From NCBI GenBank assembly GCA_947462095.1, contig CANHNQ010000012.1:1-49590 (forward strand): a DNA stretch of 49,590 nucleotides, read 5' to 3'. Of this stretch, positions 21,296 to 32,202 are shown piece after piece. The notes under the pieces are model-generated. The model made no database searches. It was not told the DNA's origin and saw only the letters and a program-made list of their open reading frames with translations. How positions within the stretch are numbered: position 1 is the stretch's first letter; each line of letters opens with the position of its first letter. Position numbers and translations under genes: made by a program. The stretch is from Gemmatimonadota bacterium. GTDB taxonomy: Bacteria > Gemmatimonadota > Gemmatimonadetes > Gemmatimonadales > Gemmatimonadaceae.

Positions 21296-22774
21296 TCAGC
21301 CTTGCGCGATGCGCGGTGCGGGTGACGGCCGCGCGATCCGTTGACCGCGCATCAGGATCCCATACAGCAGGGCACTGAGTGCGAACGTGACGAACCACGC
21401 GTACGCGTACAGGGTGTCGAGCAGCCCCGGGTTGGCCACGATGCCGCCGGGGGTCGTGGCCGCCCGCAGAAAGCCGGGTACCACGGGCAGCACGCCCGCC
21501 ACAAGGGCGACCACCGCGCGCGGGTTCACCCCGTGCCAGTAGCGATACGCGCCGTCTGGGCGGAACAGATCATCCACCAGCAGCTGCTGGCGGCGGATGA
21601 TCCAGTAGTCGACGATCAGGATGCCACCGAGCGCGCCCATCAAGCTGGAGTACCCCAACAGCCACGTGAAGATGTACGCGGCGGCGTCGGCATAGAGCCG
21701 CCACGGCATCATCAACACGCCGATCACGGCGGTGATGAGCCCGCCCGTGACGTAGCTGATCCGACGCGGGTGGAGATTCGAAAAATCGTTGGAGGGCGAC
21801 ACCACGTTGGCCGCCATGTTCGTCGTGAGCTGCGCGGCCAGAACGATCAGCGTGGCGAAGACGACCACGCCGGTGCCGCCAAGCCGCGTCACCAGCACGA
21901 TGGGATCCCAGATGGGTTCCCCGAACACGCCGATCGTGGCGCTCGTGACGGCCACGCCGATGAAGGCGAACGCCGTCATCGTTGTGGGCAATCCGAGCGC
22001 CTGCCCGAGCATTTGCGACCGCTGATTTCGGGCGTAGCGCGTGAAGTCGGGAATGTTCAGGCTGAGGGTGGCCCAGTAGCCCACGTTCGCGGTCAGCGCG
22101 GCGGGGAAGATGGTCCAGAAGCGGGCGTGGCTTTTCGTGAGCGCCGTGGACTGCGCCAGCACGGCGCCGAGTCCCCCGCCCGCGCGGACGGCCCAGAGCA
22201 ACAGCAGGGCGCCGCCTGCCAGCAACAGCGGGGCCGACCAGGCCTCGAGCCGCTTGATCCCGTCGGTCCCCTTGAGGATGATCGCGACCTGCACCAGCCA
22301 GAACGCCGCGAAGGCGACGGCGGTGTGTGCGTCGATCCGGCTCCAGCCGCTCCACAGCGCCGACACCAGCGTGTCGAGCGCCAGCGCTCCGATCCATGTC
22401 TGGATGCCGAACCAGCCGCACGCGACCGCTGCGCGCAGCAGCGCCGGCACGTTCGCGCCGCGCACGCCGAAACTGGCGCGGCACAGCACGGGAAAGCTCA
22501 CCCCGTACTTGGTGCCGGCGTGCGCGTTCAGGATCATCGGAATCAGCACGATCACGTTCCCCAACAGAATCGTGAGCATCGCCTGCCACCACGTCATCCC
22601 CTGCGCCATGAGTCCCGACGCGAGGGTGTACGTGGTGATCACGACACTCATCCCGATCCACAGGGCCGCGATGTGGTACGTGCTCCACGTTCGCGTCGTG
22701 GGCGTGGTCGGCGCGAGGTCCGCGTTCCAGAGCGGACTGTCGGCGAGCGGCGTGGGGGTAGGTGGCATCGACAT
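21296..22774 (-). CDS. NCS1-family nucleobase/hydantoin-type transporter
   Basis: This 492-residue, strongly hydrophobic protein has about 12 predicted membrane segments. It shows NCS1 hallmarks: the N-terminal ADLAPTTPTTRTWSTYHI region, then GTKYGVSFPVLCRASFG, the central GYWATLSLNIPDFTRYA and the late SLMGALGGILIVDYWIIRR. NCS1 carriers take up cytosine, uracil, allantoin, hydantoins or thiamine precursors with a cation. The exact substrate is not readable. The ATG at 22774 overlaps the TGA of the STAS-kinase gene (TGATG), so the transporter is translated after it and may be functionally tied to it. Confidence 0.9.
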   Translation of the reverse strand: MSMPPTPTPLADSPLWNADLAPTTPTTRTWSTYHIAALWIGMSVVITTYTLASGLMAQGMTWWQAMLTILLGNVIVLIPMILNAHAGTKYGVSFPVLCRASFGVRGANVPALLRAAVACGWFGIQTWIGALALDTLVSALWSGWSRIDAHTAVAFAAFWLVQVAIILKGTDGIKRLEAWSAPLLLAGGALLLLWAVRAGGGLGAVLAQSTALTKSHARFWTIFPAALTANVGYWATLSLNIPDFTRYARNQRSQMLGQALGLPTTMTAFAFIGVAVTSATIGVFGEPIWDPIVLVTRLGGTGVVVFATLIVLAAQLTTNMAANVVSPSNDFSNLHPRRISYVTGGLITAVIGVLMMPWRLYADAAAYIFTWLLGYSSLMGALGGILIVDYWIIRRQQLLVDDLFRPDGAYRYWHGVNPRAVVALVAGVLPVVPGFLRAATTPGGIVANPGLLDTLYAYAWFVTFALSALLYGILMRGQRIARPSPAPRIAQG

Positions 22775-23976
22775 CACGCGTCGGAGGGGGGAGCGAGGTC
22801 GGCGCCCACCCCAGATGCCGCATATTCCCGCCGAATGCGGGGCATCAGCGTGTCGCGGATCATCTGCACGCAGGCGTCCCGCATCTTCGGCAGGAAGGTC
22901 ACGGTGTAGATCAGCCGCAGCGACGCGAGAAAGGCGCGGTTCTGGTCGAAAAACGCGTACTCCTCCGGCGTCTTGTCGGCGAAGTAGTGCGCCACGAAAC
23001 GTTCCCACAGCGCCAGCCCCAGCTCGTTGGGGATCTTCGTGGCCAGTTCGCTGATCCCGAGTTCCGGCACACCGTAAATGGTGCACAGCAGACCGACATC
23101 GAACAGGTAGCTGCCGCGCGAGAAGTCACCCATGTCGATGATGACCGGCTCGCCATCACGGATCATGATGTTGCTGGAGTGGATGTCGAAGTGCACACAG
23201 GTGTCCGCCTCCGGGATACCGGCCAGCCGCTCGTGCAGCATGGCGATATCCTCGGCCGACAGGAAGAAATCCATCTGATCGATGTAGCCCCGGAAGCGCG
23301 CCTTCAGATCGGGGAACACCGCCGGATCCGCCGGCGTGGCGTGGATCGTCTGCGCCACCCGTGCCAGCGTGGACGCATGGCGGTCGAGGTGATCCGGGGC
23401 GGCGCGGATCACCGCGCTGAACAGCTCCGCATCGAGCATTTCGTACACGATGCCCGTGCGGGTGCCGCACGAGACGACGTCATACGAGATGGCCGTGGGC
23501 ACGCCGAGCACGAAGGCCGCCTTGGCGAACGCCTTCTCCTGCGCGGCGATCTCGGGGGCGACCCCTTCGTGATACAGCTTCACGATCGTCTCATCGTCCA
23601 GGCGATAGCACTCGCCGCACACCCCGGCCGACATGAGCGCGAGTCCGTCGATGCTGATCTCCCGCACCTTGGGACGGATGGACAGCATGCTCGAGAGCCC
23701 CGTGAGCTCGAAGATGTGCTGCACCTCACGGCTCACGTTCGCGACCTCGACGCGGCCCTGGCGCGCGGAGAGGCGCTTCTGCGCGCGCAGCACCTCGCGC
23801 AGGCCGGCGCTCGACACGTAGGCGCAGGCGTCGAGGTCGAGCACGAGCGTCAGGACGCCCTCATCCTGCAACACCGCGTCGAGCGCCTCCGTGAACCCGG
23901 CGCTGGTCGTTCCATCCAGACGGCCCGACAGGGCAAGCGTGAGCCTGTCGTCGATCCGGTGCGTGACGATCTGCAT
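22774..23976 (-). CDS. STAS domain fused to an APH/choline-kinase-like phosphotransferase
   Basis: This is a 400-residue cytoplasmic fusion. Residues of about 1-100 form an anti-sigma-antagonist-type STAS domain (LALSGRLDGTTSAGF, LDLDACAYVSSAGLREVL with the conserved SSAGL where antagonists are phosphorylated). Residues of about 115-400 form a small-molecule-kinase-like domain: the phosphate-loop-like CYRLDDETIVKLYH, the Brenner-type HFDIHSSNIM and the metal-binding IDMGDFSRG. The substrate is unknown. The gene is translationally coupled to the NCS1 transporter, so nucleobase or vitamin handling is an attractive guess. The ATG at 23976 is chosen because the STAS fold begins there. Confidence 0.85.
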   Translation of the reverse strand: MQIVTHRIDDRLTLALSGRLDGTTSAGFTEALDAVLQDEGVLTLVLDLDACAYVSSAGLREVLRAQKRLSARQGRVEVANVSREVQHIFELTGLSSMLSIRPKVREISIDGLALMSAGVCGECYRLDDETIVKLYHEGVAPEIAAQEKAFAKAAFVLGVPTAISYDVVSCGTRTGIVYEMLDAELFSAVIRAAPDHLDRHASTLARVAQTIHATPADPAVFPDLKARFRGYIDQMDFFLSAEDIAMLHERLAGIPEADTCVHFDIHSSNIMIRDGEPVIIDMGDFSRGSYLFDVGLLCTIYGVPELGISELATKIPNELGLALWERFVAHYFADKTPEEYAFFDQNRAFLASLRLIYTVTFLPKMRDACVQMIRDTLMPRIRREYAASGVGADLAPPSDA

Positions 23977-24173
23977 GGCGGTGGGCGGTGAGAGGGGACG
24001 CGGGCAACGATGGGGACGACGGGCCGAGCAAGTATACGCGGCCGGTTCGATATGGCGAACCCGACTGACACTGCCCATACTTCCGGTCGCTCCGATCGCC
24101 GCGTAGTCACCGGGCGGTCGCGCGTCTTGCTGCCACAGGGGCGCGCATTCGATCTCGACGCCGGGACTTGCTG

Positions 24174-26483
24174 ATGATCACCCCACTTCGCCGAGCGCTG
24201 TCGCTGCTCGCCCCGCTCCTGCTGAGCACCGCCTGCGGGCCGGATACGCCATCGACCACCGCCACCCCCCCGACTGGCGCGACGCCGGCGAAGTCGACGC
24301 AAATGTCTTCCACCGCGGATCTGAACGGTAAGCGCCTCGGCGTGATCCTCGGCTCCGTGTACGACAAGTTCGCCACCACGACCTATCCCGCCGCCACCGT
24401 CCTCACCTTCGACGCCGGCACGGACCTCCAGCAAGCGGTGCTCTCGGGGAAGGTGGATGCCGCGCTCACCGACGAGGAGGGGCTGCTCGAGATGTTCGGC
24501 ACCTCCGGGGAGCTGGCCATTCTTGGCGAGCCGATCCTCCGGCTGCCGCTCGGGGTCGGCTTTCGCAAGGACAACACCGCGCTGCTCGCCGCCTTCAATC
24601 GCTTCCTGCGCGATATCCGGGCGAACGGCGTGTACGCCGACATGGTGAATCGCTGGGTCGTGCGGCACGAAACGCAGATGCCGACGATTGCGGGCGCGGA
24701 CCCGTCGTCGGGCACCATCACCGTGGGCGTGGCCGGCGGTGGATTGCCCTTCGGCGGCATCCAGAACGGCGTCTACGTGGGTTTCGACGCCGAGTTGGCG
24801 CAGCGGTTCGCCGCGTCACAGGGGAAGCGCGTCACGTTTGCCCAGATGCCGTTCGGTGGACTGATTGCCGCCAACGCGAGCGGCAAGATCGACATGATCG
24901 TCGCCGGTATGTTCATCACCGAGGAGCGCAAACAGCGGATCTCGTTTTCCGATCCGTACTTCGAAACCAACGGTCGCGCCTATGCCCGCACGGCCAATAT
25001 CGCGCCCGCCAACGCGTCGGCGCCCGGCGCCACCACCGCGCGCGCGAAGTTCACCACCACCGATGACCTGAACGGCACGCGCATCGGTGTGCAGCTGGGC
25101 ACCGTGTACGATAGGTACGCCACGACGACCTATCCGCGCGCCACCGTGGTGCAGTTCCCCACGTATCAGGACATGACGCTGGCGGTGAGCGCCGGCAAAG
25201 TGGACGCCGGGCTCAGCGATGTGGAGACGCTGGCCGAGTTGATGCTGACCAACCCCGCCTTGGCGCCGTTCGGTCAGCCGCTGTTCTCGTCGCCGGTCGG
25301 TGCCGGCTTTGCCAAGACGAGCACCGCGCTGCGCCGCGACTTCAATGCATTCCTCGCGCAGATCCGGGCCAACGGGGTGTACGACGACATGGTCAACCGC
25401 TGGATGAAGACGCACAGCCGGACCATGCCGACGCTGCCCACCGCGGCGCCCAACGGCGTGCTGGTGGTCGGGCTCGCGAGCGGCGGGTTTCCGTTCGCGG
25501 CGGTGCAGAACAACGAACTGGCCGGTTTCGACATCGAACTCGCGCGGCGCTTCGGTGCCTCGCTGGGCAAGGAGGTCCGCTTCGCCGATCAGGAGTTCGG
25601 CGGGCTGATTGCCGCGCTGATGAGCGGCAAGGTGGATGTGATCATCGCCGACATGTACATCACCGAGGAACGGCAGAAGAGTATCGACTTCTCCGATGCG
25701 TATTTCGCGCAGGCGAACGTCGCGTTCACCAACAAGGCCAACACCGTCGCGCCGGGCGCCGCCGCGCCGACCGCCGCCGACCGCGGCACCTGGGTCGATC
25801 GGGTGGTCGCCAGCTTCCAGAGCAACATCATCCAGGAGAAGCGCTACCTGCTTATCCTGGATGGCCTGGCCACGACGGCCATGCTGGCCGTGCTGTCAGC
25901 GCTCTTCGGCACCACGCTCGGCGCACTCATCTGCTTTATGCGCCTCTCGTCACGCGCCGTGTTGCGGCGGCCGGCGCAGGCGTTCATCGCCGTGCTGCGT
26001 GGCACCCCCGTGGTCGTGCTGCTCATGATCATGTTCTACGTCGTCTTCGGCTCGGTGAACATCAATCCGGTGTTCGTTGCCGTGATTGCGTTCGGCATGA
26101 ACTTCGCGGCGTATGTGGCGGAGATCTTCCGGTCGGGGATCGAAGGGATCGATGCGGGGCAGTCGGAGGCCGGTACGGCCATGGGGTTCACCCGCGTGCA
26201 AACGTTCCGCTTCGTGATCCTGCCGCAGATGATCCAGCGCATTCTGCCCGTGTACAAGGGCGAGTGTATCTCGATGGTGAAGATGACCTCCATCGTGGGA
26301 TACATCGCGGTGCAGGACCTCACGAAGGCCAGCGACATCATCCGCAGCCGCACCTTCGATGCGTTCTTCCCGCTGGTCATGGTGGCCGTGCTGTACTTCA
26401 TCATTGCCGGCATACTCATGCAGGCGTTGGGTGCCGTGGAGCGCGGCACCGACCCGCGCCGGCGTCGGGCGGGCGGGCGCTGA
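24174..26483 (+). CDS. Amino-acid ABC importer: two permuted solute-binding domains fused to permease
   Basis: This 769-residue protein has a lipobox (LSTAC, Cys21), two substrate-binding units and a HisMQ-type permease (about 545-757, with an EAA-like loop around EAGTAMGFTRVQTF). The order of lobes is odd. The first segment after the signal (48-165, DLNGKRLGVILGS) is the second half of a type-2 binding fold. The first half (180-270, with FITEERKQRISFSDPY) follows it. The same order repeats at 298-412 and 427-515. Amino-acid-binding signatures are kept: Arg in TEER and Asp in LTD/LSD. No ATPase gene is adjacent. The ATG at 24174 gives a clean lipoprotein signal. Confidence 0.85.
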   Translation: MITPLRRALSLLAPLLLSTACGPDTPSTTATPPTGATPAKSTQMSSTADLNGKRLGVILGSVYDKFATTTYPAATVLTFDAGTDLQQAVLSGKVDAALTDEEGLLEMFGTSGELAILGEPILRLPLGVGFRKDNTALLAAFNRFLRDIRANGVYADMVNRWVVRHETQMPTIAGADPSSGTITVGVAGGGLPFGGIQNGVYVGFDAELAQRFAASQGKRVTFAQMPFGGLIAANASGKIDMIVAGMFITEERKQRISFSDPYFETNGRAYARTANIAPANASAPGATTARAKFTTTDDLNGTRIGVQLGTVYDRYATTTYPRATVVQFPTYQDMTLAVSAGKVDAGLSDVETLAELMLTNPALAPFGQPLFSSPVGAGFAKTSTALRRDFNAFLAQIRANGVYDDMVNRWMKTHSRTMPTLPTAAPNGVLVVGLASGGFPFAAVQNNELAGFDIELARRFGASLGKEVRFADQEFGGLIAALMSGKVDVIIADMYITEERQKSIDFSDAYFAQANVAFTNKANTVAPGAAAPTAADRGTWVDRVVASFQSNIIQEKRYLLILDGLATTAMLAVLSALFGTTLGALICFMRLSSRAVLRRPAQAFIAVLRGTPVVVLLMIMFYVVFGSVNINPVFVAVIAFGMNFAAYVAEIFRSGIEGIDAGQSEAGTAMGFTRVQTFRFVILPQMIQRILPVYKGECISMVKMTSIVGYIAVQDLTKASDIIRSRTFDAFFPLVMVAVLYFIIAGILMQALGAVERGTDPRRRRAGGR

Positions 26484-26534: not shown

Positions 26535-27353
26535 CTAGCCGCGCTTGGCGGCGCGCCCGTTGGTGGTCCAGATGACGATCACGCCGCAGCCGGCATTGGC
26601 ACCGGCGAATTCGCCGGGCACATCGCTGGCGCCGGTATAGACCTCGACGGCCTGGATGTCGCGCACCGGCACGAGCGGGCCGAAGCTGTTGTCCACCCGC
26701 TCATCGACCACGTAGTCGGGGGAGCACCCCAGCGGCGCACGGGCCATCTGGACGAGACAGGTCGAGCCGGCGCACGAGTAGCGCACACCGCGCAGCGGGC
26801 GCAGCGCATCCTGTAGCGTCCCGAACTGCCCCTCTTCGAGTTGGGTGCGAGTGAGGTACTGCCCACGCCCGGTGGTACGGCGGCGCTCGAAATCGGCAAA
26901 CCGTCGCCCCGCCGACATCGGCGCCGTCACCGGCACGGTGGGGAGCGCCTGGACTTTGGCGCTATCGGCGGCAGAGAGCACCAGACCGACCGGATCGAGC
27001 TCGAGGTCCCGCTCCATGACCTCCCGCTGCGCGAAGGCGAGGGTGACCGCGCCCCGATTGTAGCCCGCGGCGCTGACGAGGAAGCGGTGAATCCCGGCCT
27101 TGAGGCCGTCGATCCGGTACCGGCCGGCCGAATCCGTCCGCACGCTGGCCCCGGTCGTGGTGGCGGCCACGGTGGCGTCGATCAGCGGCACGCCCGACAC
27201 GGCGTCGAGGATCCGGCCGCGGAGCGTCGCCGTCTGGGCGCCGAGCGGTGTGGCCATGTGGGCGGCCAGCGCGAGGCCGATGGCGGCCCGCCAGAGCGCA
27301 GCCGGCCGCGGCCGTGTGCCGTCGTGGTGATGATCAGATCGGAGAGCCGACAT
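26535..27353 (-). CDS. Carboxypeptidase-regulatory plus TonB-plug-like protein without barrel
   Basis: This 272-residue exported protein has a signal peptide ending near PLGAQT. Residues of about 32-110 are a carboxypeptidase-regulatory-like beta-sandwich (LRGRILDAVSGVPLIDATV, DSAGRYRIDGLKAG). The C-terminal part resembles a TonB-receptor plug (LQDALRPLRGVRYS, YVVDERVDNSFGPL, IQAVEVYTGASDVP) but stops before any barrel. Four cysteines in the plug-like part may form disulfides. It is divergent from the SusC gene. It could be a complete periplasmic accessory protein or a truncated receptor; the clean stop and intact frame favour the former. Confidence 0.78.
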   Translation of the reverse strand: MSALRSDHHHDGTRPRPAALWRAAIGLALAAHMATPLGAQTATLRGRILDAVSGVPLIDATVAATTTGASVRTDSAGRYRIDGLKAGIHRFLVSAAGYNRGAVTLAFAQREVMERDLELDPVGLVLSAADSAKVQALPTVPVTAPMSAGRRFADFERRRTTGRGQYLTRTQLEEGQFGTLQDALRPLRGVRYSCAGSTCLVQMARAPLGCSPDYVVDERVDNSFGPLVPVRDIQAVEVYTGASDVPGEFAGANAGCGVIVIWTTNGRAAKRG

Positions 27354-27419
27354 TCGTGGTCCCGGAGTGGGGGGGCGAACCGAGGAAGTACACCTGATCG
27401 CGGAAAATGATCCAAAATC

Positions 27420-27448
27420 TTTACGCAAGGGCCCGCCTCTCCTAAGTT
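27420..27448 (+). promoter_or_regulatory. Putative promoter of the SusC/SusD operon
   Basis: TTTACG (27420-27425) and TAAGTT (27443-27448) are separated by 17 bp. This places a start near 27455 and gives a leader of about 70 bases. Unlike several other genes in the window, this transcript would have a real leader and a Shine-Dalgarno sequence. Confidence 0.35.
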
Positions 27449-27465
27449 AGCACGGTGGTTCCCGA

Positions 27466-27488
27466 CGTCTTGTCCCCCGGACAAGACG
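27466..27488 (+). promoter_or_regulatory. Perfect 10-bp inverted repeat in the SusC leader
   Basis: The arms 27466-27475 (cgtcttgtcc) and 27479-27488 (ggacaagacg) are separated by ccc. The element lies just after the predicted transcription start and 38 bp before the SusC ATG. It could be an operator or an RNA hairpin. It lacks a T run, so it is not a typical terminator. Confidence 0.6.
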
Positions 27489-27526
27489 CACCCCGCTGGG
27501 ACGAACTCCAAAGGCCAGGAGCTGGA

Positions 27527-30500
27527 ATGCATCACGTCACGCGGCGGATCGTCGCCGCCGCCTCATTGTTCTTCTTACTCAAACCCGACGCCGCGCAGGC
27601 CCAGGCGACGATGGTCATCACGGGTCGCGTGACCTCGAACGGCCAGCCGCTGGGCGGGACGCAGGTTGGCATCGTCGAGCTCGCCGCCGGCGGGGTCACC
27701 GACCAGCAGGGGCGCTACTCGTTTACGGTCGACCCGTCGCGGGCGAGCCGACCGGTCAGCCTGCTGGCGCGCACCATCGGGTACCGTCCGATCCGACGCT
27801 CGATCACGCTGGCGGCCGGACGCAGCGAGCAGAACTTTGAGCTCGAGAAGGACGTGCTGAATCTGGAAACCGTCGTCACGACCGGCGTATCGGACGCGAC
27901 GTCGCAGAAGAAGACCACGTTCGCGGTGGCCGCGGTCGACAATGCGCAGATCAAGGAAGCCCCGGCCTCCTCGCCGCTCGGCGCGATCAGCGGCCGCGTG
28001 GCCGGTGCCAGCGTGACGGCGGTCAACGGCGAGCCCGGCTCGGCGCCGCGCATCCGTCTCCGTGGTCCGACGTCGCTCACGGGCAGCCAGGATCCGCTCA
28101 TCATTGTCGATGGCACGATTTCGCGCCTGTCGCTCGCGGACATCAACTCGGAAGACATCGAGCGCATCGAAGTCATCAAGGGTGCCGCCGCCAGCTCGCT
28201 CTACGGCTCCGACGCCGCCAACGGCGTGGTGCAGATCTTCACGAAGCGCGGCGCGGCGCTGGCCGCCGGCCAGACGAGCGTGACGGTGCGCAACGAGATG
28301 GGCAGCAACAATCTCCGCAGGACCATCCCGAACAACCTCTCGCATCCGTACAAGGTCACGGCCACGGGCGAGTTCGCGCGCGATGCCAACGGCAACCGCA
28401 TTCAGGAAGACGACAAGATCTCGGACAACTCGTACCCGAAGGTCTTCGACCAGCTCGGCGAGGTCTTCCGCCCGGGGCAGTTCATGACGAACTACATCTC
28501 GGTCGGACAGCGCAACGAGAAGTCCAACTTCAACGCCTCGTTCCAGAACACGAAGGATCAGGGCATCGCGAATCTGCTCAGCGGTTACAACCGCCAGAAT
28601 TTCCGCATGAACCTCGATCTCGAGCTGCATCCGAAGCTCGACCTGCAGACGGGCGCGTTCTACGGGCAGTCCAAGGCCGATCAGGCCGACGACAGCTCCG
28701 GCGATGCATTTTTCGGCCTCCGGTTCCTCGAGCCGAACATCGACCTGCTGGAGAACAATCCGAACGGCACGCCCTACAAGGCGGCCATTCGCCAGACGCC
28801 GGCGTCGGGCAACGTGAGCAACCCGCTGTACAATTGGGCGAACATCCAGAACATGAACGACCGCAGCCGCTTTACGGGCACGCTCAAGCTGCGCTACCGC
28901 CCGTTCCAGTGGCTCACGTACGAAGCCAATACGAACTTCGATCGTGGCTCGCGTGAACTCCGCTCGTACACGCCGCTCGGCTACATCGGCTCTACGGGCA
29001 CGGTGAGCAAGGGCAGCATCTCGAGCAACGTCGACCAGACGAAGGCCTACAACCTCGGCAGCACGCTGACGGCCACCAAGTCCACGTCGTGGTTCACGAA
29101 TACCACGAAGCTGGCGTGGGTGTACGAAGACCAGAACAACACCGGTACGAGCGTGTTCGCATCGTCCCTTACGGTGCCGCGCGTGACCGAGTTCTCGGCC
29201 GCCTCCCGCGATCCCGACAGCCCGATCATCCCGGGGTCCTACACGCAGCCGATCCGCAACCAGAACTTCTTCGCGATCACCACGTTCGACATCAAGGACA
29301 AGATCATCGTCGACGGTCTCATTCGTCGCGACGAGTCCTCGCTGTTCGGCGCCGATCAGCGCTCGAAGCTCTTCAAGCGCCTCTCGGGTGCCTATCGCGT
29401 CTCGGAAGATGTCAAGCTCCCGGGCGTCGACGAACTCAAGCTGCGCATGTCCTACGGCGAGGCGGGTCTCCGCCCGGTGTTCGATGCGCAGTATGAGCAG
29501 TTCGCCATTCAGGGCGGCAGCCCGGTCAAGATCACGCTCGGCAACCCGAATCTCCGTCCGGCCTTCTCGCGTGAAATCGAAGCCGGCTTCAACGTGAACT
29601 TCCTCAAGAACTTCACGTTCGAGTACAGCTACTCCAGCAAGATCACCGACGACCAGATCCTGAACGTGCCGGTGTCGGCCGCCACGGGATTCCAGTCGCA
29701 GTGGCTCAACGCCGGCTCGCTTGGCGGCAAGACGCATGAAGTGCTGCTGGGCGCAGTACTGGCCAGCAAGAAGGATTTCCTGTGGCGTGTGAACGTCGCC
29801 GGTGACCGCACGCGTCAGGTGGTGCGCAGCCTCGACGTGCCGCCGTATCTGGTGGGACCGGTGTCCAACACCACGATCTTCCGTCTCGCCTCGGGCCAGC
29901 CGTTCGGCATCGTGTACGGCAGCAAGTGGCTCCGCTCGGCCGATCAGGTCAACGAGATGATCGCGTCGAAGCGCCTGTCGGGCACCGCTGCTGACTACGT
30001 GCAGAACGAAGAAGGCTTCTACGTGGCCAAGTCGGCCTGGCGCACCGGTGCCGAGCGTCCGATCAAGTTCGCCGACGCCACGGGCAACACGCTGTTCCAG
30101 ATCGGCGACGTGAACCCCGACTTCAACCTGAACTTCAACACCCAGATGAACTGGAAGAAGTTCTCGGTCACGGCGGTGGTGAACTGGGTGCAGGGCGGGG
30201 ACATCTACAACTACACGCGCCAGTGGCCGTTCTTCGACCAGCGCGACCCGGCCTTCGATCAGCGCGGCAAGCCGGACGTCGAGAAGAAGCCGACGACCTA
30301 CTACGCCACGTTCTACAACAATTTCGACGCCAACGACTACTTCGTGGAAAACGGCAGCTACGTGCGTCTGCGCGAACTCGCCGTGAACTACCAGCTCCCG
30401 GCGTCGTTGGTGAAGCACGTGGGCATCGGCGACGGCCGGACGGCGCGCCTCGGTATCGTCGGCCGTAACCTGTTCACCTCCACGAAGTACTCCGGTTACG

Positions 30501-30607
30501 ATCCGGACGTCTCGGGCGGCGGTGCCAACCCGTTCGCGTACCGCGTCGACTACTTCACGTATCCGATCTTCAAGACGTTCACGTTCATGCTGGAGCTCGG
30601 ACTGTGA
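27527..30607 (+). CDS. SusC/RagA-family TonB-linked outer membrane transporter
   Basis: This 1026-residue protein has a signal peptide ending near AAQAQA. A carboxypeptidase-regulatory-like domain follows (about 25-110, VITGRVTSNGQPLGGTQVG), then a plug (about 115-240, with PLIIVDGTISRLSLADI and IERIEVIKGAAASSLYGSDA) and a long 22-strand barrel. It imports oligosaccharides, peptides or similar ligands across the outer membrane with a SusD partner. The ATG at 27527 has an AGGAG ribosome-binding site (27517-27521). It overlaps or abuts the SusD gene. No glycoside hydrolase is nearby, whereas several peptidases are, so a peptide ligand is plausible but unproven. Confidence 0.93.
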   Translation: MHHVTRRIVAAASLFFLLKPDAAQAQATMVITGRVTSNGQPLGGTQVGIVELAAGGVTDQQGRYSFTVDPSRASRPVSLLARTIGYRPIRRSITLAAGRSEQNFELEKDVLNLETVVTTGVSDATSQKKTTFAVAAVDNAQIKEAPASSPLGAISGRVAGASVTAVNGEPGSAPRIRLRGPTSLTGSQDPLIIVDGTISRLSLADINSEDIERIEVIKGAAASSLYGSDAANGVVQIFTKRGAALAAGQTSVTVRNEMGSNNLRRTIPNNLSHPYKVTATGEFARDANGNRIQEDDKISDNSYPKVFDQLGEVFRPGQFMTNYISVGQRNEKSNFNASFQNTKDQGIANLLSGYNRQNFRMNLDLELHPKLDLQTGAFYGQSKADQADDSSGDAFFGLRFLEPNIDLLENNPNGTPYKAAIRQTPASGNVSNPLYNWANIQNMNDRSRFTGTLKLRYRPFQWLTYEANTNFDRGSRELRSYTPLGYIGSTGTVSKGSISSNVDQTKAYNLGSTLTATKSTSWFTNTTKLAWVYEDQNNTGTSVFASSLTVPRVTEFSAASRDPDSPIIPGSYTQPIRNQNFFAITTFDIKDKIIVDGLIRRDESSLFGADQRSKLFKRLSGAYRVSEDVKLPGVDELKLRMSYGEAGLRPVFDAQYEQFAIQGGSPVKITLGNPNLRPAFSREIEAGFNVNFLKNFTFEYSYSSKITDDQILNVPVSAATGFQSQWLNAGSLGGKTHEVLLGAVLASKKDFLWRVNVAGDRTRQVVRSLDVPPYLVGPVSNTTIFRLASGQPFGIVYGSKWLRSADQVNEMIASKRLSGTAADYVQNEEGFYVAKSAWRTGAERPIKFADATGNTLFQIGDVNPDFNLNFNTQMNWKKFSVTAVVNWVQGGDIYNYTRQWPFFDQRDPAFDQRGKPDVEKKPTTYYATFYNNFDANDYFVENGSYVRLRELAVNYQLPASLVKHVGIGDGRTARLGIVGRNLFTSTKYSGYDPDVSGGGANPFAYRVDYFTYPIFKTFTFMLELGL

Positions 30608-30633
30608 GCGCCGCCAACCGGAGTATTGAATTC

Positions 30634-32202
30634 ATGCGAAATCGCACCCTCGCGGTCGGCATGGGAGCGCTGTTCCTCGCCGGCTGCAACACGCTCGACG
30701 TCGAGAACCCGAACGCGCCCGATGCTAAGCGCGCGCTCGCCGATCCCGCCGCGATCGAAGCGGTGGCCGGCGGCACCTTGCGCTCGTGGTTCAACACGTA
30801 CGACGGCATGGAAGGCGGCGGACCGCTCGTCACGATGGCCCAGACGTATTCGGCCTCGTGGAACAACTACAACATGAACTTCTACTCGTCGATCGATCCC
30901 GACGGCACGCGCAACACGCGCGCGTATCAGAACGATCTGGCGTCGGCCGGTCGTTCGACGATGATCGGCTACTGGCAGGGCTACTACACCACCCTGTCGT
31001 CGGCGGTGGACGTGCTCACGGCCATCCGCAAGAACAAGCTCGTGATCACGAACGCGGCCAATACCAAGCGGGCCGAGACGATCGCGCAGCTGATGCGTGG
31101 CGCGTCGCTGATGGGCATCGCGCTCAACTACGACAAGGGGTACGTGATCGATGAGAACACGGATCTGAACACGCTGGAGTACAAGACGCGCAAGCAGGTG
31201 CGTGATGCGGCGGTCGCCTCGTTCGCCGAGGCGGCGTCGCTGGCGACGGCGAACGTGTTTACCACGCCCAGTGGCTGGACCAACGGCACGTCGTACACCA
31301 ACGTCCAGATCGCGCAGCTGGCGAAGACGATGGCGGCCATGACGCTCGCCTACTATCCGCGGACGCCGGAAGAGAATACGGCGGTCGATTGGGCGGCCGT
31401 GTCGGCGCTCGCCGCGGGCGGCATTTCGTCGGGGGCGAAGTTCGATTTCAACTTCACCGGCGACGGCTGCAGCTCGTGGTGTCACGAAATCCTGTACTGG
31501 TTCAACGCGTTCGATGGCGGCCGTGTGCACACGCGCGTGGCGAACCTGCTCGATCCGGTGACGCAGAAGACGCCGTATCCGAACGGCGGCAACGCCCGTC
31601 CCAACTCCGCCGACCGGCGGTTGGGAGACGGCTCCTTCGGTCCGGACGACGAAGACTTCGCCGGCTACTTTGGCGTCGTGCCGAAGACGGCGCGTGGCGG
31701 CTCGGACTTCGTGTACTCCACCGAAGAAATCTTCCGCCCCGATCGCGGCATGTACCATCAGTCGAACATCGGCCACGTCCGCTACGACCGCTCGGGCGAG
31801 CAGTCGCCGAATGCGATCTACGGCGGCTACGGCGTGGCGCCGGTCATCAGTCGCAACCAGAACGATCTGCTCTGGGCGGAAGCGGAACTGCGTCGCTCGG
31901 GTGGCAACCTCGCCACGGCGGCGAACCTGATCAACAACACACGCGTCGATCGCGGTGGGCTCTCGGCGGCCACCGCCGGCGAAGGCCAGGCCGCCCTGCT
32001 GCAGAAGCTGATCTACGAGCAGGAAATCGAACTGCTCGGACTCGGTCCGGTGTCGTACTACCAGCGCCGTCGCGTGACCGGTGGTCTGCTCGCGGGTACA
32101 CCGCGCGAGATGCCGGTGCCGGCGAAGGAACTCGCCGTGAAGAACCAGGAGTTCTACACGTTCGGCGGCACGGGGACCGCCAACAGCCCGACCCCGCCGT
32201 GA
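30634..32202 (+). CDS. SusD/RagB-family outer membrane lipoprotein
   Basis: The ATG at 30634 gives a 522-residue lipoprotein with lipobox FLAGCN. A GTG at 30604 that overlaps the SusC stop (GTGA) is an alternative, but it adds ten residues before the signal. The start TLDVENPNAP and the late block NNTRVDRGGLSAATAGEG, followed by LIYEQEIELLGLGPVSYYQRRR, are typical of SusD-like ligand-capturing lids with TPR helices. It pairs with SusC at the cell surface. A hairpin terminator follows at 32248, closing the two-gene unit. Confidence 0.92.
   Translation: MRNRTLAVGMGALFLAGCNTLDVENPNAPDAKRALADPAAIEAVAGGTLRSWFNTYDGMEGGGPLVTMAQTYSASWNNYNMNFYSSIDPDGTRNTRAYQNDLASAGRSTMIGYWQGYYTTLSSAVDVLTAIRKNKLVITNAANTKRAETIAQLMRGASLMGIALNYDKGYVIDENTDLNTLEYKTRKQVRDAAVASFAEAASLATANVFTTPSGWTNGTSYTNVQIAQLAKTMAAMTLAYYPRTPEENTAVDWAAVSALAAGGISSGAKFDFNFTGDGCSSWCHEILYWFNAFDGGRVHTRVANLLDPVTQKTPYPNGGNARPNSADRRLGDGSFGPDDEDFAGYFGVVPKTARGGSDFVYSTEEIFRPDRGMYHQSNIGHVRYDRSGEQSPNAIYGGYGVAPVISRNQNDLLWAEAELRRSGGNLATAANLINNTRVDRGGLSAATAGEGQAALLQKLIYEQEIELLGLGPVSYYQRRRVTGGLLAGTPREMPVPAKELAVKNQEFYTFGGTGTANSPTPP

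Follow-up and report, generated by a model that had tools for sequence, protein, structure and literature searches.

A gene of a Gemmatimonadota bacterium, located within the 49,590-nucleotide stretch of DNA analyzed here (contig CANHNQ010000012.1, referred to below as the window), raises the question of how a solute-binding receptor can be built when its two lobes are encoded in reverse order. Two answers had been proposed in the initial annotation: either both binding units are circular permutants, or an ancestral first lobe has been lost and the lobes pair across units. We conclude with high confidence that the gene product is the membrane subunit of a polar amino acid ABC importer, in which a tandem pair of circularly permuted type II binding domains stands N-terminal to the permease; the partner ATPase is probably supplied by a paralogous locus of the same genome (contig C127). 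The ligand, uptake and regulation of this importer are untested.

Domain organization of the window protein

The open reading frame 24174-26483 (+ strand) starts with ATG at 24174, ends with a stop codon at 26483 and encodes 769 amino acids in an uninterrupted frame. Scans with our own profiles and Pfam identified a lipoprotein signal followed by lobe 2, lobe 1, lobe 2, lobe 1 and a polar amino acid permease (Table 1), which together with alignments to solved structures bears out the order first proposed. The SBP_bac_3 family (PF00497) matches the protein with 211 bits against a cut-off of 26.4, and this match and those to PDB entries indicate that both lobes are homologous to type II amino-acid-binding proteins. 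In the alignments to solved structures, the order within these domains is swapped rather than lobe 1-lobe 2: residues 9-99 of AncQR align with query residues 179-268, and residues 108-231 with query residues 43-162. The two units share 53% identity over 234 positions and thus represent a true tandem duplication. Both Pfam and NCBIfam conceal the lobe order, because their best stretches (182-412 and 178-411, respectively) are colinear and fuse lobe 1 of unit 1 with lobe 2 of unit 2. No single permuted SBP_bac_3 domain was found among solved chains in the best 60 of 481 sequence matches, and the colinear span on 6h30 is due to the two tandem standard domains of that chain. The permease domain was recognized by PF00528 (BPD_transp_1, 61.7 bits, cut-off 26.4) and HEQRo_perm_3TM (66.3 bits, cut-off 42.2).

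Table 1. Features of the window gene and its divergent neighbor (window coordinates).
Feature	Position	Strand	Basis
Predicted lipoprotein signal peptide, Cys21 lipidation site (LSTAC), residues 1-21	24174..24236	+	sequence itself
Unit 1 lobe 2 and C-terminal helices, residues 43-166, ligand Asp100	24300..24671	+	own-profile/Pfam scans, solved-structure alignment
Unit 1 lobe 1, residues 177-279, ligand Arg252	24702..25010	+	own-profile/Pfam scans, solved-structure alignment
Inter-unit linker, Ala/Pro-rich, residues 280-292, low model confidence	25011..25049	+	model and sequence
Unit 2 lobe 2 and C-terminal helices, residues 293-415, ligand Asp349	25050..25418	+	own-profile/Pfam scans
Unit 2 lobe 1, residues 425-525, ligand Arg500	25446..25748	+	own-profile/Pfam scans
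Linker before permease, residues 526-544, low confidence in part	25749..25805	+	model
Polar amino acid ABC permease domain, residues 545-767	25806..26474	+	PF00528, TIGR01726 above cut-off; model fit to 4yms_C
STAS fused to APH-type phosphotransferase, divergent, candidate regulator	22774-24078	-	PF01740, PF01636

Relatives with one to four permuted units

Relatives of the window protein were collected from a scan of species genomes and from whole-genome searches, and were counted after removal of duplicates. Permease fusions of the type (lobe 2-lobe 1)n-permease carry one unit in 18 proteins, two in 13, three in 10 and four in 2. Another 30 open reading frames consist of a single lobe 2-lobe 1 unit without a permease; they are mostly ~260 residues long with a lipobox (LSGC or LAGC in stand-alone relatives), and a few of them may be fragments. 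Many of the stand-alone genes directly precede a permease gene without a binding domain, and one such unit (L003, contig C126) is encoded in the window's own genome. The lobe order is kept in fusions with one to four units and in many phyla, which answers the check on homologues suggested initially. Since a free protein of ~260 residues contains only lobe 2 and lobe 1, its binding site must come from these two lobes, and one unit must be self-sufficient; nothing suggests the alternative that the site is formed by swapping in a dimer. A protein from the same genus as the window (L037) corresponds to the window protein but lacks unit 1. Lobe 2 and lobe 1 of the one unit that it has are 83% and 96% identical, respectively, to those of window unit 2, compared with 54% and 50% for window unit 1.

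Two further arrangements were observed in this set. In L208:298-3060(-), a permuted unit, a permease, an ABC ATPase and an RsbW-like tail are joined in one polypeptide of 921 residues. In L183, L187 and L188, permeases with three units and with one unit adjoin and have a single ATPase in common, which suggests heterodimeric transporters with unequal receptor numbers.

Structure models and pairing of the lobes

The AlphaFold2 model of the stand-alone protein L003 is a confident two-lobed domain (pLDDT 88, pTM 0.80). Foldseek, a sequential aligner, gave no order-preserving fit with a model-normalised TM above 0.5 among its best 50, despite the overwhelming sequence similarity of L003 to type II SBPs. 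In VIA-align comparisons, the C-terminal lobe of the model fits the N-terminal lobes of ArgBP with 42-43% identity at 2.0-2.6 Å. Fits of the whole domain cover about 155-209 residues at 3.1-5.1 Å with an identity of only ~10%, because the lobes are swapped. We read these whole-domain fits as a pseudo-symmetric fold in which lobe 2 is superimposed on lobe 1 and lobe 1 on lobe 2; the model would then represent a flytrap arrangement in swapped order.

The full-length model of the window protein (pLDDT 81.5) has a pTM of 0.40, which is expected for flexibly linked domains, but the arrangement of the domains is not proven. Its confident receptor blocks span residues of about 40-279 and 290-527, and the low-confidence breaks (280-289 and 528-537) sit between the units and ahead of the permease. 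Each of the two segments 40-280 and 290-527 can be fitted to complete binding proteins at ~3.3 Å, whereas residues 177-371, a colinear lobe 1-lobe 2 segment with 37% identity to ArgBP, fit it at 13.4 Å. This difference means that the full-length model, as a prediction, pairs the lobes inside the units, with pairing read from alignment ranges and rmsd and without a permuted superposition. The permease domain of the same model fits 4yms_C over 209 residues (Z 20.6, 3.6 Å, 34% identity).

Evolutionary distances point the same way as the models. In 40 neighboring unit pairs, the distance matrices of lobe 2 and lobe 1 correlate with r of 0.90 and 0.87 within units, compared with 0.49 for lobe 1 and lobe 2 of the next unit and 0.46 for the outer lobe pair. 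Part of this co-divergence reflects co-duplication of neighboring segments and not contact alone, and we take it as support, not as proof.

Pairing across the units would create a middle domain of standard order from lobe 1 of unit 1 and lobe 2 of unit 2, with the outer lobes pairing with each other or being vestigial. It is compatible with the colinearity of residues 177-415 with standard-order SBPs (182-412, 178-411) and with inter-unit linkers that are on average not longer than those inside units (15.7 ± 5.0 and 16.5 ± 1.9 residues, respectively), although mean linker length does not discriminate between the pairings and only the spread differs. We regard this arrangement as very improbable, since neither single-unit fusions nor stand-alone units offer a second unit for pairing, co-divergence is found within units, and the colinear segment deviates from canonical domains by 13-19 Å rmsd in the full-length model. 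A model with standard lobe order had been named at the outset as a result that would refute the permutation; in the model obtained, the colinear segment does not come together as a binding domain. Still harder to defend is decay or an annotation artefact, with an N-terminal first lobe either lost or overlooked because of a wrong start or a sequencing error. Lobe loss does happen in this genome, where the paralogue L002:613-2673 (G000:C127) has lost ~100 residues in frame relative to L044; the missing part is the core of the second lobe 2, with the hinge strand, the C-terminal helices and lobe 1 remaining. However, proteins from independent genomes of many phyla all start with a signal peptide followed by lobe 2, upstream of the window gene lies the divergent STAS-APH gene and no lobe 1, and an extra N-terminal lobe 1 was seen in none of about 75 family proteins inspected. 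The only lobe 1-first exceptions, L129 and L205, have a 5' end cut by a contig or locus edge.

Of the two answers proposed initially, the loss of an ancestral first lobe with cross-unit pairing thus finds no support in the N-terminal regions of relatives or in the model, and the circular permutation of both units is upheld by the stand-alone units, the fusions with one to four units, the co-divergence and the structure models. At the level of sequence, the order and independence of the units can be considered demonstrated, and each unit is predicted by modelling to be one complete Venus flytrap. The chain of a permuted unit runs through lobe 2, the C-terminal helices, a short linker and lobe 1, with the original termini joined and the new ends placed at the hinge.

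Ligand site

All units compared (113/113) retain the carboxylate-binding Arg, and the Thr of the ITxER motif is nearly invariant. The amino-binding Asp (equivalent to Asp157) is kept in 72/113 units, including both units of the window, and is missing in 41/113. Conservation of the Arg of TEER and the Asp of LTD/LSD in both units had been noticed initially, and Arg252/Arg500 and Asp100/Asp349 are indeed present, the Asp residues being assigned by reading the sequence. Phe247 and Tyr495 of the window units replace the Thr preceding the Arg motif of AncQR (GMTITEER), and Gly is found here in place of the aromatic residue of canonical GlnH and ArgBP pockets. With a pocket that is not fully canonical and an Asp equivalent absent in 41 units, it is uncertain which ligand is bound and even whether every unit binds one. 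The ligand is likely amino-acid-like, but which one is not known in the absence of binding data.

By inference, the lipid-anchored units of the window protein would trap this ligand in the cleft of their two lobes, with the conserved Arg and Asp as contacts, and then pass it on to the permease in a GlnP-like manner. Simple arithmetic gives four receptors for a homodimer and eight in the case of relatives with four units.

ATPase with an RsbW-like tail

No ABC ATPase open reading frame was found in the window. The absence of an adjacent ATPase gene had been pointed out initially, and this is correct for the window, but a family ATPase is encoded elsewhere in the same genome (82% complete), where a paralogous permease gene on contig C127 is followed by a gene for a GlnQ-type ATPase. 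The window transporter would probably obtain its ATPase from elsewhere, most likely from this locus. In the family, the ATPase gene adjoins the permuted permease in 38/48 loci, and 37 of the 38 adjacent ATPases carry an RsbW-like tail, with the remaining one (L049) cut by a contig end. Such a tail was found in 0/54 control loci, which encode mostly standard-order binding proteins and are mostly from Pseudomonas; the loci are not independent.

The C-terminal domain of the C127 ATPase is homologous to HATPase_c_2/RsbW, with a Pfam match (E 1.8e-4) below the family cut-off and an hhalign comparison of the tail family with neighboring kinases giving a probability of 98.1 (E 1.1e-13). The N-box Asn is kept in 3/41 tails, compared with 11/11 separate kinases, and the DxG Asp, also present in 11/11 separate kinases, is not among the five commonest residues in the tails. 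Given the loss of these residues in most tails, the domain looks like a pseudokinase, to judge from its motifs.

STAS, SpoIIE and kinase genes near permuted permeases

STAS proteins are encoded near 20/48 permuted loci, SpoIIE phosphatases near 13/48 (mostly with a dCache sensor) and separate HATPase_c_2 kinases near 10/48, compared with 0/54 control loci for each of them. The Ser-Ser motif of the STAS proteins is invariant (20/20). A recurrent operon encodes an NMT1-type SBP, a dCache-SpoIIE protein, a stand-alone permuted SBP, a permuted array-permease, the ATPase with its tail, a STAS protein and a kinase. STAS with the conserved Ser, HATPase_c_2 kinase and SpoIIE phosphatase occur together in relatives such as L048, L054, L183 and L191, and the sole neighbor of this kind beside the window gene is the STAS-APH protein, which is also found at L034 and L035.

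STAS domains fused to APH, or to TCAD9 and APH, are encoded divergently beside permuted permeases at L037:2961-5252(-), L215:4078-6474(-) and in the window (22774-24078(-)), and such neighbors occur in Gemmatimonadota and Bacillota. An NCS1-type cytosine/purine/allantoin permease is encoded near the permuted permease both in the window (21296-22780(-)) and at L039:11020-12630, which may hint at a shared pathway. On the other side of the window gene, a carboxypeptidase-regulatory-domain protein (26535-27428(-)) adjoins a SusC/SusD-like pair (27455-32202), the latter recognized only by reading the sequence.

Partner switching is known from RsbU-RsbV-RsbW of Bacillus subtilis. The permuted loci resemble this system in having a SpoIIE-type phosphatase, a STAS protein with an invariant Ser and an HATPase_c_2 kinase, and differ in that no sigma factor was noticed and the presumed client is the tail of the ABC ATPase. 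Partner switching probably controls import in this family, an inference from gene content only, with the regulation itself untested. The STAS protein would act on a C127-type ATPase through the degenerate RsbW-like tail, as suggested by the operons of relatives, and would likely shuttle between the kinase and the pseudokinase tail depending on its own phosphorylation. In its full form, the proposal describes a class of importers with permuted receptor arrays in which the dCache-SpoIIE phosphatase and RsbW-like kinase set STAS phosphorylation, and free STAS docks on the ATPase tail and switches import on or off. We put this forward tentatively, as slightly more open to doubt than to belief.

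The clustering of STAS, SpoIIE and RsbW-like genes with the permuted permease, and the resemblance of fused receptor arrays to sensor flytrap tandems such as BvgS, could also mean that the assembly is mainly a sensor, whose ligand state is read by STAS proteins via the ATPase and its tail for control of something else. This seems unlikely, though it cannot be dismissed as readily as cross-unit pairing: the GlnQ-type ATPase and the canonical PAAT permease are retained, and the operons already hold a separate dCache-SpoIIE sensor.

Distribution and origin

Permuted type II units occur in Bacteroidota, Bacillota, Gemmatimonadota, Pseudomonadota, Acidobacteriota and Verrucomicrobiota. In samples of the phyla of L048 (Bacteroidota) and L053 (Bacillota), the family was found in 26/247 and 4/249 genomes, respectively. 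It was also found in 3/274 genomes from the class of Methylovulum and in 5/298 Gemmatimonadota genomes, all five of the window's genus; thresholds differ between the samples, and the genomes on which they were centered are included. In a quick tree, permuted and standard-order permeases are split by one branch (SH-aLRT 97). With the permuted permeases on one side of this branch, a single origin is possible, and their patchiness and nesting suggest horizontal transfer. L039 and L051 are from MAGs titled Klebsiella pneumoniae, and their permeases group with those of uncultured Gammaproteobacteria and Gemmatimonadota; these labels look wrong.

Comparison with known systems

The closest known architecture is that of GlnP in Lactococcus lactis GlnPQ, a tandem SBD-permease fusion (PMC8025302). 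Like the window protein, GlnP has two tandem type II amino-acid-binding domains N-terminal to a PAAT permease, with four receptors per transporter. However, its units have the order lobe 1-lobe 2, and the relatives of the window protein reach four units and include stand-alone permuted units. The amino acid ABC transporter 4yms shares the fold of the permease domain, but its C chain (4yms_C, 214 residues) has no fused binding domain.

The one well-described natural permutation of an ABC binding protein that we found in a search of open-access papers is type I and glucose-binding: TpMglB-2 (Tp0684) of Treponema pallidum, a naturally permuted lipoprotein of an ABC importer proposed as 'type Ic' (PMC4990184). 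In contrast to the window units, this lipoprotein is single, is not fused to a permease and is permuted elsewhere, with strands of the N-lobe moved to the C-terminus. Membership of the window units in the 'type Ic' group was rejected, as they match SBP_bac_3, a type II family, and not the type I sugar-binding fold. Regulation of an ABC ATPase by a STAS protein has a precedent in MlaB, which acts on MlaF (PMC7367683). The ATPase of the permuted family differs in its degenerate HATPase domain, and a kinase and a SpoIIE phosphatase are encoded in the operons of relatives; an interaction with STAS is inferred. Searches of open-access PMC papers turned up nothing that describes permuted type II amino-acid-binding units, their arrays or amino acid ABC operons linked to STAS/RsbW or SpoIIE.

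Thus, the window protein belongs to a real family with an inferred GlnP-like mode of working, a non-standard topology and an unexplored regulatory side. Current domain annotation mis-splits these proteins, with Pfam joining the wrong halves (182-412). A role of partner switching in controlling the importer post-translationally is suggested by the linked STAS, SpoIIE and RsbW genes and by the pseudokinase tail; we did not find such a role described in open-access papers. The type II permutation extends across several phyla, with the permuted unit multiplied up to four times per chain, and these arrays make the effect of receptor number and topology on docking and transport testable.
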